Assembly (NCBI GenBank): GCA_017998575.1
Contig: JAGOCV010000153.1
Location: forward strand, 1 to 9,311
Source of the DNA: Burkholderiaceae bacterium
GTDB taxonomy: Bacteria > Pseudomonadota > Gammaproteobacteria > Burkholderiales > Burkholderiaceae
DNA: 9,311 nt
Direction: 5' to 3'
Shown: positions 4,405 through 7,847 of the stretch, piece after piece
Layout: each line of letters starts with the position of its first letter
How positions within the stretch are numbered: the first letter of the stretch is position 1
Notes under the pieces: generated by a model
What the model was told of the DNA's origin: nothing
Database searches by the model: none
The model's input: the letters and a program-made list of their open reading frames with translations, nothing else
Position numbers and translations under genes: made by a program

Positions 4405-5034
4405 TCAGTGCAGGTGGCGGGGGCGGCGTCCACCGCCATGGCCGCCGGGGGCACCCGGGCCGCGCGGCGGCTTGCCGATTTCGAGCGAATTGACCAGCTT
4501 GTCGAAGCGGTCGCCGAAGAGCTTGTCGATCTCGGCCACGACGCCGCCGAGCTCGGCACCATCGAAATGACGCTCCATCAGGCTGACCACGTCTTCCACC
4601 AGCAGGTCGCGCTGCACCTGCATGATGGCCGCGGGCGTGGGGCCCACGAACAGCATCACAAAATCGTCGCGTGCCTCGCGGCCGGCGTCTTCGTCTTCCT
4701 CGTCGAACTCGGTGTCGTAGAAGGACACCTCGAGAGCCGCACCCTGCTCTGCCAGCTCATTGAGCGACATGCACAGTTCGTCGAGCGACTGCCGGAAGTC
4801 TTCATCGCCAGGCACCGTCCAGCAGATCTGCAGCAGATGCTTGGCGGCGTCGAACTGGATGCCCGGCTCTTCTTCGTAGACGCTGGGGGCGCCGTCGGCG
4901 AGCGAACGCGCCCCGGCGTACTTCCACAGGGGTCGCAGCGCGTCCTGGAGCTGCTCGTAGCCGACATCGGCGCGCAACTGCACATCGCCGTGTACGTGGA
5001 TTTCGAAAGGGGACTCTTCGTTGTATCGGGCCAT
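4405..5034 (-). CDS. Conserved-looking acidic protein of unknown function
   Basis: A 209-aa soluble protein with no signal peptide or membrane segment. I do not recognise a characterised function; it reminds me of a Comamonadaceae-restricted family (tentatively DUF6806), which I could not check. The N-terminus carries FEIHVHGDVQLRADVGYEQLQ (10-30). The middle has a strongly acidic run, FDEEDEDAGREARDD (110-124). A conserved-looking helical region, VGPTPAAIMQVQRDLLVEDVV (130-150), follows, then an amphipathic stretch EIDKLFGDRFDKLVNSLEIG (168-187). The tail from 188 is Gly/Pro/Arg/His-rich and ends RRPRHLH. A start at 5034 is the only reasonable one, although the Shine-Dalgarno site is poor. 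The gene lies 71 bp ahead of the transporter on the same strand, so a shared transcript is possible. The coding signal is good: base composition matches the host and no better frame competes. Confidence 0.8.
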   Translation of the reverse strand: MARYNEESPFEIHVHGDVQLRADVGYEQLQDALRPLWKYAGARSLADGAPSVYEEEPGIQFDAAKHLLQICWTVPGDEDFRQSLDELCMSLNELAEQGAALEVSFYDTEFDEEDEDAGREARDDFVMLFVGPTPAAIMQVQRDLLVEDVVSLMERHFDGAELGGVVAEIDKLFGDRFDKLVNSLEIGKPPRGPGAPGGHGGGRRPRHLH

Positions 5035-5143
5035 GGATGCGCTCTGGGGGAAGCTGGCATTTTCGCACGCGGACGATGCGGCGGGGGAACGGGGTCGAGC
5101 CGGCAGGAATCCTCATGGCCGCCAGGGCGGCCCGCGCGTCTGC

Positions 5144-5168
5144 TTCGCCTTTCATGACGACACTTCGC
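5144..5168 (+). promoter_or_regulatory. Perfect PIP box (TTCGC-N15-TTCGC), HrpX/HrpB-type operator
   Basis: TTCGC occupies 5144-5148 and is repeated exactly at 5164-5168 with 15 bases between. This is the full consensus of the plant-inducible promoter box bound by AraC-family HrpX in Xanthomonas and Acidovorax, and it also fits the hrpII box read by Ralstonia HrpB. The direct repeats are oriented to drive the plus strand. The site lies 89 bp upstream of the ATG of the 143-aa gene. At the usual 30-32 nt downstream there is GAGCAT (5201-5206), which fits the YANNNT minus-10 pattern except at its first base; a full match, CATGGT, lies at 5204-5209 (35 nt). Confidence 0.8.
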
Positions 5169-5247
5169 ATGACAACACCCATCGTCCGCGCGCCTGCGCC
5201 GAGCATGGTGGTACTGGACCTCGCATTGAGGCCAGCCTTCAACCAGC

Positions 5248-5252
5248 AGGAG
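5248..5252 (+). promoter_or_regulatory. Ribosome binding site fixing the start of the 143-aa gene
   Basis: AGGAG with a 5-nt spacer to the ATG at 5258. The reading frame is open back to 5021, but this site and the PIP box upstream place the true start at 5258. Confidence 0.8.
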
Positions 5253-5257
5253 TCACC

Positions 5258-5689
5258 ATGGGAATCGGAGCACCAATCGCAACAACACTATTAGGCGGCG
5301 CATCCGCACTCGACGGCGCGTCCGGATCCGGACCCGTATCTATCCTCGACAAACTTCGCGGCACGCTCCAGAACGGCGCTCAGAACCTGCTCGGATCGTT
5401 GACGGAACTCTTCAAGGGCAACCTGAAGGGCGCAGCGAGTCAATTCATTGCAGGGTGCTTCGGCGCACCGCCACCCGGCCAAACCGATCAAGCCAACAAG
5501 GACTTCGGCGCGTCCAGCGGCCTCCTGCTCGCGGACCCATTGAAAGGCACGTTCAGCCCCATGCAAAGCGAGGGGACCGACGATGAATACGAAGACGACA
5601 AGGCTGAGATCAACAAGAAGGAAGCCGAAGACAAGATGTTCAGGACTCTGGAACTGAACAAGATCTACAGCAACAGCATCGCCGGATGA
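5258..5689 (+). CDS. Candidate type III-secreted or Hrp-associated protein, 143 aa
   Basis: I recognise no family. The N-terminus MGIGAPIATTLLGGASALDG has an aliphatic residue at position 3 and no acidic residue before Asp19; with the PIP box upstream, this resembles a type III secretion signal. Residues 28-68 form amphipathic Gly/Leu/Ala-rich segments (ILDKLRGTLQNGAQNLLGSL, then LFKGNLKGAASQFIAG). A Pro/Gly linker follows (69-75). From about 105 the chain is highly charged (GTDDEYEDDKAEINKKEAED) and ends in a likely helix, MFRTLELNKIYSNSIAG. That ending recalls the C-terminal helices of filament, needle or rod subunits, but this is only an impression. By hand count GC is about 58% over 5281-5689, well below the flanking genes, and codons such as CTA, TTA and GTA appear that neighbours avoid, suggesting horizontal acquisition. 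It overlaps the next gene (ATGATG). Alternatives are a small effector, a translocon accessory or a filament-like subunit. Confidence 0.75.
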   Translation: MGIGAPIATTLLGGASALDGASGSGPVSILDKLRGTLQNGAQNLLGSLTELFKGNLKGAASQFIAGCFGAPPPGQTDQANKDFGASSGLLLADPLKGTFSPMQSEGTDDEYEDDKAEINKKEAEDKMFRTLELNKIYSNSIAG

Positions 5690-6069
5690 TGGGCAACACC
5701 ACCGCCACCCCACGGGCCAGCGACGAAGCCTGCGTGCTTGCGCACGCGATGGCGGAAGCCCTGCTCAGTTGCGCGTCGGACGACGCCGAGCGTCTGTACG
5801 GTGAGCTGTGCGAAGCCGAGCCCCGCGCCCGCGACATGCTCATCTATCCGATGATGATCGCAGCGCAGCGCAATCGCCTGCTCGACTTCTACCGGGACCT
5901 TCACGAGAACGACCCCGACAACCACCTGGAGATACAGGCACTGTGCCTGCACCGCCTGGGCGATCCGGGATGGGAGCGCGTGGCGCGGCAGGTCGCGGCC
6001 AGTCATGCCGACCCCGTGGTGCAGCACGCCATGCGCGAATTGATGGGCCAGCCCGAGCCGGTGCAGTGA
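5686..6069 (+). CDS. HrpB1/HrpK-like acidic helical protein, 127 aa
   Basis: A small all-helical protein with no lysine and about 21 acidic against 11 arginine residues. It looks like two to three TPR-like helical hairpins: ACVLAHAMAEALLSCASDDAE (15-35), LIYPMMIAAQRNRLLDFYRDL (52-72) and LEIQALCLHRLGDPGWERVA (81-100). The segment ALCLHRLGDPGW followed by a helix and DPVVQHAMREL (109-119) resembles the end of the HrpB1/HrpK family (SctX/PscG-like type III secretion proteins). Tandem ATGs at 5686 and 5689 overlap the preceding stop, so translation is coupled to the 143-aa gene. In this position an acidic helical protein could be a dedicated chaperone or an apparatus accessory for the upstream product. 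The family assignment rests on recollection of a pattern, not on a search; a generic TPR-like protein remains possible. Confidence 0.75.
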   Translation: MMGNTTATPRASDEACVLAHAMAEALLSCASDDAERLYGELCEAEPRARDMLIYPMMIAAQRNRLLDFYRDLHENDPDNHLEIQALCLHRLGDPGWERVARQVAASHADPVVQHAMRELMGQPEPVQ

Positions 6070-6088
6070 CCACGGGCCGCGCACGACC

Positions 6089-6568
6089 ATGCGCCGACTG
6101 AGGCTCACGCCGCGCATCGACCTGGAAGTTTTCTTCCGGGCCGAGCCGGCGCTGCGTCACCCCTCTGGCGGTCTTCCGGATGAAGCCGCCATCGCCGTGC
6201 TGCGTGCGCGTCTGCAGCACTGCCCATCCATCGGCTTCGAGATGGACGGGCAGGCGATCGGCGGCCTCATCCTCGAAGGGCACGAAGCGTTCATCGCCGT
6301 CCTGCCCAACGCGCATGGTCACTGGGCTTTGCTGCTCAAGCCGGCACTGGACTGGCTTTTCGGCCTGCGCGCAGCCGTTCTCGCGCGCGTGGCGGTCGAC
6401 AATCACAGCAGCATCGCGCTGATGGAGCGCCACGGCTGGCGCAGGCTGCGCGCGGACGCGTCGACCATCAGCTACCTGATGGTGCCGCTGTCGGGGACGC
6501 GCAAAACGGCCTATCGCTTTCGCGAAGACGCTGCGGCGCGCCGACCCCCGGCAGCTTCGGCCGGATGA
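6089..6568 (+). CDS. GNAT-fold acetyltransferase-like protein with an unusual CoA loop
   Basis: A 159-aa protein with the late part of a GNAT fold: a strand AFIAVLP (67-73), a loop-helix NAHGHWALLLKPALDWLFG (74-92), a strand AAVLARVAVDN (95-105) and a helix SSIALMERHGWRRL (107-120). The VDNHSSIALMERHGW block is typical of motif B in GNATs. The CoA pyrophosphate loop, normally Q/R-x-x-G-x-G/A, reads N-A-H-G-H-W here: only the central Gly is kept, so acetyl-CoA binding may be altered or lost. Similar loops occur in small GNAT-like proteins of phages. The gene begins 19 nt after the 127-aa gene without a clear Shine-Dalgarno site and probably belongs to the same transcript. The C-terminal tail (146-159) is low-complexity Ala/Pro/Arg. 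The substrate is unknown; it could be a partner encoded in the cassette or a host protein. Confidence 0.72.
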   Translation: MRRLRLTPRIDLEVFFRAEPALRHPSGGLPDEAAIAVLRARLQHCPSIGFEMDGQAIGGLILEGHEAFIAVLPNAHGHWALLLKPALDWLFGLRAAVLARVAVDNHSSIALMERHGWRRLRADASTISYLMVPLSGTRKTAYRFREDAAARRPPAASAG

Positions 6569-6600
6569 TTGCGCGGCTCGCCCGCTGCCGACAACGACGC

Positions 6601-7386
6601 CTAGGTCAGGACGCCGGCCGCGAGCAGCGGCTCGCACCACGCCAAGCCTTCTGCCGGCGTGCTGCGAGGCCGATATTCGAAGCCCAGCCACGCGCTGTCG
6701 CCCTGCTGCTGCAACTGCTGCACGGCCGCCTGCAGACCATGCATCGACAGGTCGGGTTCATGCCGGCCATCGACTCCCGCGATCTGCGCATGGCCGATCC
6801 AGCCGCGCGCACGCGCCAGTTCATCGGCCAGCACCAACCCCTCCTTCATGCAGTGATAGAAATCGAACTGCAGGCGCAGCCAGGGCGAATCGAACGTGCG
6901 CAGGATCGCCAGCGCCTGCTCTGGCCGGTGATAGAAATATCCCGGCACGTCCGCGCGGTTGAGCGGCTCGAGCATGAGCGTGATGCGCGCTTGTGCCGCA
7001 AGCGCCGACGCCAGGGCGAGGTTGTCGGCAAAGGCTGACTGGCACCGCAGGTGCGGCAGATCTGCCGTCCGCCCGGCCATCAGGTGGATACGCGCACAGC
7101 CGATGGTCTGGGCCACCTCGAGCGCACGTTCCAACCCGCTGCGAAAGCGCGCTTCGTCGCCCGGCCGCGCAGCCCAGCCGTGGCTGCCGGCACCCTCTTC
7201 TACCGGAGTGTTGATCAATACCGGCGCCAGGCCGCTGGCACGCAGCGCGTCGGCATACCAGGCCGGCGACCGGTCGTACGGAAAGAGAATTTCAACGGCG
7301 CGAAAGCCATCGCGCGCCGCCGCGTCGAAACGCGCCTCCAGCGGCAGATGGGCATACAGCAGGCTCAGATTGGCGGCGATTCGCAT
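6601..7386 (-). CDS. Hydroxypyruvate isomerase family TIM barrel (Hyi/OtnI-like)
   Basis: A 261-aa cytoplasmic sugar isomerase-like protein of the xylose isomerase-like TIM barrel fold. Hyi interconverts hydroxypyruvate and tartronate semialdehyde; the related OtnI acts on 2-oxo-tetronate. The start MRIAANLSLLYAHLPLEARF and the segment GFRAVEILFPYD (27-38) are typical, as is LINTPVEEGAGSHGW (57-71). Candidate catalytic and metal residues are Glu140 (LMLEPLNR), Asp175 and His178 (FDFYHCM), His199 and Gln201 (GHAQIAG), and Glu237 (GFEYRP); the two Glu match the paired catalytic glutamates of E. coli Hyi. The frame stays open upstream through tRNA-Leu, but the ATG at 7386 gives the family length. 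There is no good Shine-Dalgarno site. No glyoxylate carboligase or tartronate semialdehyde reductase gene is adjacent, so the substrate cannot be fixed. It is convergent with the GNAT-like gene, 32 bp apart. Confidence 0.88.
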   Translation of the reverse strand: MRIAANLSLLYAHLPLEARFDAAARDGFRAVEILFPYDRSPAWYADALRASGLAPVLINTPVEEGAGSHGWAARPGDEARFRSGLERALEVAQTIGCARIHLMAGRTADLPHLRCQSAFADNLALASALAAQARITLMLEPLNRADVPGYFYHRPEQALAILRTFDSPWLRLQFDFYHCMKEGLVLADELARARGWIGHAQIAGVDGRHEPDLSMHGLQAAVQQLQQQGDSAWLGFEYRPRSTPAEGLAWCEPLLAAGVLT

Positions 7387-7771: not shown

Positions 7772-7847
7772 TGGAGCGGGAGAAGAGTCTCGAACTCTCG
7801 ACCTCAACCTTGGCAAGGTTGCGCTCTACCAACTGAGCTACTCCCGC
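7772..7847 (-). tRNA. tRNA-Gly (GCC)
   Basis: Minus strand, acceptor stem GCGGGAG (7847-7841) pairing with CTCCCGC (7782-7776), discriminator T and an encoded CCA (7774-7772). The D arm reads TAGCTCAGTTGGTAGAGC, the anticodon loop CTTGCCAAG carries GCC, and the T arm has AGTTCGAGACT. It is the first gene of the cluster, 102 bp after lon. Confidence 0.97.

Follow-up and report, generated by a model that had tools for sequence, protein, structure and literature searches.

A PIP-box-led cassette of three small genes as a putative type III substrate-chaperone unit in Burkholderiaceae

What three small, closely packed genes led by a PIP box may do among ordinary housekeeping genes is the question raised by this locus. 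The window, meaning the whole stretch of 9,311 nucleotides analysed here from a Burkholderiaceae bacterium, carries an exact PIP box of the form TTCGC-N15-TTCGC (TTCGCCTTTCATGACGACACTTCGC) on the forward strand at 5144..5168. The first gene on the same strand, P1 (5258..5689), begins after a further 89 nt and encodes a protein of 143 aa; its ribosome binding site, AGGAG at 5248..5252 (+), was recognised from the sequence and sits five bases ahead of the start. P1 overlaps the second gene, P2 (5686..6069, forward strand, 127 aa), by 4 nt at an ATGA junction, and a gap of 19 nt separates P2 from the third gene, P3 (6089..6568, forward strand, 159 aa). Outside the cassette, on the reverse strand, lie genes for a DUF6806 protein (4405..5034; PF20621, E 1.7e-86) and for a xylose-isomerase-like TIM barrel (6604..7386; PF01261, E 5.6e-33), the latter perhaps a hydroxypyruvate isomerase. 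Housekeeping genes thus surround the cassette in the window, with no hrp island there, and an Rfam search of window positions 5000-6700 gave no match. All elements of this layout that the initial annotation had listed (box, ribosome site, three genes with their overlap and gap, and ordinary flanks) were confirmed on the sequence.

The best account of this arrangement, and one that we consider probable, is an HrpX-controlled unit composed of an export substrate, its dedicated chaperone and a GNAT-fold accessory. An AraC-type activator of the HrpX/HrpB kind would bind the box and switch on one message. P1 would be the substrate exported through type III secretion, and P2, a TPR-like HrpB1 paralogue, would hold it in the cytoplasm, most likely by the conserved C-terminal end of P1. 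In effect, P2 would then pass P1 on to the export gate, a service that YscG renders to the needle protein and IpgC to translocators. P3 may play an accessory part, either by modifying P1 or P2 or by binding to one of them. HrpX control, P1 export, P1-P2 binding and any role of P3 are what we infer here. The earlier idea of a substrate, a chaperone and a modifier acting together fits this account, with P1 as a putative export substrate and P3 as a weak candidate for an enzyme.

A single other genome-contig locus with all three genes was found, namely L001 on contig JAFKGD010000003.1 of a Burkholderiales MAG (G001), where the gene order and the neighbours are as in the window. The two loci share DNA at 94.8% identity along 5072 bases and at 90.7% along 2339, and the P2 and P3 proteins are 88% and 89% identical, respectively. 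For P1, 65 of 122 aligned residues agree; its N-terminal half is rewritten and its charged C-terminal end is well kept. Between the window and L001, dN and dS (NG86) are 0.41 and 0.64 for P1, 0.066 and 0.40 for P2, and 0.059 and 0.17 for P3, a contrast that would be expected of a chaperone encoded beside an exposed substrate. P1 has a GC content of 0.583, compared with 0.667 for the window; it matches no family in Pfam, NCBIfam or PHROGs, and a protein search returned no relative beyond P1 itself. In the promoter, the half-sites of the box (9110-9134 in L001) are identical at 10 of 10 bases and the whole box at 21 of 25, while identity drops to 24 of 62 alignment columns just upstream of the box and 28 of 59 just downstream (39-47%). 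Such unchanged half-sites in diverged DNA may be read as a footprint of selection. The AGGAG element is also kept. As a separate observation, the blastn match between window and L001 stops inside the 3' end of a tRNA-Gly(gcc) gene (window 7772-7847; near 11701 in L001); ARAGORN did not find this tRNA in L001, and the arrangement looks like an element inserted at the tRNA in the MAG.

The rival explanation that survives best, unlikely as it appears to us, is that the cassette is a relic or a domesticated unit, whose hrp cluster was lost or never present and which now has no need of type III secretion, for example because P2 and P3 act in the cytoplasm as a TPR-GNAT pair that answers to a different regulator. 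The housekeeping surroundings agree with this, and so does G001, a MAG whose completeness is not stated, in which profile searches gave no HrpX match at E 0.001, no apparatus HrpB1, and HrcJ, HrcC and HrcV only below the curated cut-offs, these matches being taken for flagellar or general secretion relatives. However, MAG bins often miss islands, and we think an hrp island missing from the bin more likely than an idle box; HrpX was found in all four of the other cassette genomes that were searched. Unchanged half-sites in a diverged promoter, three open frames and the low dN/dS of P2 and P3 also speak against a relic, as do other PIP-led genes of G001 that look effector-like by eye, one of them with a glutaminase domain.

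The reading as an HrpX-controlled export unit can be compared with relatives of the cassette in other genomes. With a profile built from 31 P3 proteins, 399 genomes sampled from the family yielded a P3 gene in 5, and 399 sampled from the order in 1, which was G001 itself. This rarity of P3 counts against the reading; absences are soft here, as the genome-wide searches scored at most 9 (P3), 10 (HrpB1-type) or 7 (HrcJ) first-look candidates per genome. The gene is also present in the one genome of G044's genus that was searched and in 13 of the 17 genomes of the genus of G265, which is by inference Paracidovorax, given the named matches P0020 (P. oryzae) and P0017 (P. anthurii). All 13 Paracidovorax cassettes begin with a gene for a protein of 459-654 aa, which is followed by genes for P2-like (127-133 aa) and then P3-like (162-170 aa) proteins, and in each of them (L041-L043, L114-L123) a near-PIP box, TTCGC-N15-ATCGC, lies 133-140 nt before the first start. 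In the three genomes checked (G265, G386 and G328), hrcC is located about 4 kb from the cassette on the same contig, and in G328 a single contig carries the cassette, HrcC, HrcJ, HrcV, HrpX and the apparatus HrpB1 inside a span of about 37 kb. The comparison of gene order, proposed at the outset as a check, supports the idea in that the order recurs beside hrp genes. Additionally, among the boxes of L041 are some identical to those of APS58_2329, hrcC, XopP and APS58_2347, and among those of L042 are two identical to the boxes of APS58_2329 and hrcC; these four boxes are listed as HrpX-dependent in Acidovorax citrulli M6 (Table 2 of PMC6913199).

Outside Paracidovorax, the composition of the module varies. 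G044 has a PIP box followed by P2-like and P3-like genes and no first gene; HrcN- and HrcT-like frames were recognised by eye elsewhere on its contig. In both G227 and G271, an exact PIP box leads a first gene (164 aa in one genome, 99 aa in the other) and a P2-like gene, with no P3 match, and HrcJ is over the cut-off in both. From these two modules, it follows that the first gene and P2 may be an older core, with P3 as a later addition. In an alignment of nine rows, which has 26 invariant columns and carries no E-value, the 164-aa protein shows 40-46% identity with the N-terminal regions of first-gene products from seven Paracidovorax cassettes and 38% with the 99-aa protein. P1 has no detectable kinship with the first genes of other cassettes (hhalign probability below 1%); the idea that P1 is a shortened Paracidovorax first gene was tempting by eye and found no support in the profile comparison. 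G282 has a P2-like gene that was placed by eye, and no first gene of at least 80 aa was found before it. Across the sampled genomes, HrcJ is over the cut-off in 7 of 8 with a recognised P2-clade gene, compared with 49 of 391 others (Fisher p 5e-6), where the eight were recognised by tree or by eye and are not independent, three coming from one genus. The pair of P2-like and P3-like genes also occurs behind a PIP box on a Burkholderia arboris plasmid, the sole plasmid record matched both by P0020, the Paracidovorax P3 relative, and by the P2-like protein of G227. There, the pair stands behind a harpin-like frame (by eye, with no family match) that has a PIP-like box of its own; the first gene of G227 found no match among the plasmid records.

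The nature of P2 is central to the proposed function. Its match to PF09613 (HrpB1_HrpK) has an E-value of 7.5e-5 and 22.8 bits, below the cut-off of 29.3, and its match to TIGR02561 reaches 14.9 bits, below the cut-off of 123.85; a protein search gave two other relatives, at 88 and 79% identity. The cassette P2 clade matches the apparatus HrpB1 profile (hhalign, 98.9%). In a tree that omits six further HrpB1-type rows (L048, L054-L057, L059), 20 cassette-type rows split from nine apparatus HrpB1 rows with 100/100 support. Judged by these comparisons, P2 is homologous to HrpB1 but belongs to a separate paralogous clade and is not the apparatus HrpB1. The initial description of P2 as an HrpB1/HrpK-like partner therefore stands as to homology and has to be narrowed as to membership. 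As a side observation, [LMV]RA ends the nine apparatus HrpB1 proteins (L045, L046, L047, L049, L050, L051, L052, L053, L058) and is absent from cassette P2 proteins; IRA ends all 13 Paracidovorax first-gene products.

Several observations are relevant to a chaperone role. Among 18 P2-like proteins, the SctY profile matches 15 and the YscG/SsaH profile 3 (E up to 0.1, the best 9.5e-5, with those viewed singly below cut-off), and TPR_19 matches 14; the window's own P2 is matched by neither SctY nor any TPR model. The predicted model of P2 is helical, and its top 12 Foldseek rows comprise one YscG chain and eleven IpgC chains, none of them significant (best E 0.58). Searches of solved structures by sequence, with P1, P2, P2-like and first-gene queries, gave nothing significant. 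On this evidence, P2 may bear a slight resemblance to the TPR chaperones YscG, SctY and IpgC. A gene for a putative, presumably exported substrate lies directly ahead of P2 in the window, in L001, in the 13 Paracidovorax cassettes and in G227 and G271, with G044 and G282 as exceptions. HrpB1 itself is reported to reside in the periplasm and to bind peptidoglycan (Hausner 2013, cited by PMC11834469 and PMC5684485), which would point P2 away from a role as a cytoplasmic chaperone.

There is a second rival, which we rate as quite improbable: P2 could be an HrpB1-like accessory part of the apparatus, periplasmic and involved in pilus assembly, and P1 an alternative pilin or inner-rod-like subunit. 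The homology of P2 to HrpB1 and the small size of P1 in the window lineage are compatible with this, as is a published account in which HrpB1 is predicted to be an inner rod protein and presumed to provide a platform for assembly (PMC5684485). Yet the P2 clade stands apart from the apparatus HrpB1 in the tree and is without the C-terminal tail of that protein; in length, P2 falls short of the nine apparatus proteins compared by 22-46 residues. Four cassette genomes, moreover, hold a full HrpB1 as well, and first genes that range from 99 to 654 aa are unlike a pilin. A dedicated chaperone behind its substrate remains the preferred reading of P2.

The box that should place this unit under HrpX deserves separate consideration. 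PIP-like matches are common: the window holds two one-mismatch matches where 1.36 are expected, and exact TTCGB-N15-TTCGB sites number 94 in G001, against 61 for a reversed control pattern. A single box is for this reason weak evidence, and the box count alone was dropped as an argument. The same frequency is what could favour a chance box, that is, a random PIP-like match before three small genes of unrelated function. We regard this as very improbable, since the box rises above chance through half-sites conserved inside diverged promoter DNA, and PIP or near-PIP boxes precede P2-like genes in Paracidovorax, G044, G227 and G271. The earlier claim of a PIP box is thus upheld by half-sites conserved together with the operon, although one box by itself means little. 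A minus-10-like element, also claimed, did not hold up. The expected minus-10 spacing in PIP promoters is about 30-32 nt, and no element at this spacing was seen by eye in the window or L001; a YANNNT candidate, CATGGT, begins 36 nt past the box in the window (by eye), with nothing comparable in L001, so that it is not conserved.

P3 matches PF00583 (Acetyltransf_1) at E 0.0015, which is below the cut-off. Its AlphaFold2 model has a pLDDT of 84, and comparison with known structures gave 234 matches with E no higher than 0.001; among the 50 matches listed, nearly all are acetyltransferases by name. P3 is, according to this model, a protein of the GNAT fold. A protein search returned 30 other relatives. 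The usual acetyl-CoA motif of GNAT proteins, [QR]xxGx[GA], is found in none of the 31 rows of the family; in its place, all 31 rows have A[HF]IAVL followed by [HR]GxWA. In other words, P3 shares the fold of GNAT acetyltransferases and differs from them in this motif, and it may bind CoA in another way or not at all. As to the earlier GNAT-like label, the fold was borne out by model and structural matches, but the claim of an enzyme is weakened. Descent from phage or mobile-element genes, with a phage-type acetyltransferase and structural partners, is scarcely credible and was rejected. In its favour, one PHROG hit by P3 (E 3.6e-6) bears the name acetyltransferase. Against it, P3 has no match among 50,697 phage records, P1 and P2 match no PHROG, and 59 candidate stretches from viral contigs yielded no confirmed relative, so that the check on unrelated settings such as phage structural regions came back without phage relatives.

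Compared with known systems, the cassette can be classed as a variant of substrate-chaperone operons. With the HrpX/HrpB regulon of A. citrulli M6 (PMC6913199), it shares the TTCGB-N15-TTCGB box and a box-to-gene distance inside the range of 1-615 given in Table 2 of that paper, and cassette relatives lie in the same hrp island. The differences are that the minus-10 spacing is not kept in the window cassette and that the Paracidovorax near-PIP box, having one mismatch, escapes any exact-consensus search and would do so in that study; the words acetyltransferase, GNAT, HrpB1, HrpK and chaperone are absent from the paper's main text. P2 is homologous to the HrpB1/HrpK family over most of its length, and departs from it in scoring below both cut-offs, in its separate clade, in its shorter length and in its position outside the hrpB operon. 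With YscG/SctY, which serve needle and early substrates, and IpgC/SycD, which serve translocators, the cassette has in common a small protein, helical in its model, that is encoded right after a putative export substrate; the profile and fold resemblance is weak, P2 itself has no significant match, and no YscE-like partner was recognised. The hpaT-hpaH operon of Xanthomonas translucens (PMC5483457) is, like the cassette relatives, short, PIP-led and located at the edge of an hrp cluster, and its translocon-like first gene product is likened to the cassette first gene by description. Its second gene is described there as lytic-transglycosylase-like, not HrpB1-like, and a GNAT gene is not part of the operon as described. 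The composition of the cassette, which the initial annotation could match to no described effector set, is not confined to the window, given that in Paracidovorax the P2-P3 pair follows another kind of first gene; the cassette itself was not found described in the open-access literature searched.

A broader and more tentative reading, which we hold possible without favouring it, concerns the P2 clade as a whole. These proteins would be dedicated TPR chaperones derived from HrpB1, with substrates exchanged in length and sequence between lineages and, in some lineages, with a GNAT-fold modifier that acts before export. If true, group II Hrp systems would possess a type III substrate module of a new kind, and HrpB1 would be recast as TPR chaperone-like. 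Substrate-specific TPR chaperones are well known from the needles of animal pathogens, and for plant-type Hrp systems it is mostly general chaperones, HpaB among them, that have been described. If a substrate, an HrpB1-type TPR protein and a GNAT-fold protein do form a conserved PIP-led unit, this would add a class of dedicated chaperones; it would also hint at the true role of HrpB1 and prompt one to ask whether substrates are modified before they are exported. Additionally, one copy comes from a MAG for which no plant host is known, which hints that the reach of HrpX-type control may go beyond known plant pathogens.

The PIP sites of G001 offer a lead of their own. Of the 94 sites, 39 lie outside strongly coding frames according to our own filter, and by-eye picks from these 39, which are a lead and no count, include PIP-led genes with effector-like N-terminal ends at L011, L147, L171, L197, L153 and L005. 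Their GC content is 0.58-0.63 for L011, L147, L171 and L197, 0.66 for L153 and 0.70 for L005. The gene at L153:1-1203 (reverse strand), cut by the end of the locus, has a glutaminase domain (E 9.8e-13) behind about 260 residues, and L197 contains HELRH, which we take to be a zinc-protease-like motif. Among plasmid records, no match was found for the L153, L171 and L011 proteins, and L197 gave only partial matches of 33-38% to 7 records. A further GNAT-like gene of G001 (L016:1571-2203; RimJ type by eye) starts 45 nt past a PIP-pattern site.

Another genome, G097, is of interest at the loci L203 (C3:37500-43000) and L204 (C23:208500-214000). Two of its HrpB1-type genes lie a short distance apart in the vicinity of HrcJ. 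Elsewhere in the same genome, a PIP box is accompanied by a frame of 697 aa, a further gene of HrpB1 type and a frame of 443 aa that looks translocator-like by eye. Judged by eye, G097 again pairs HrpB1-type genes with export-like proteins.
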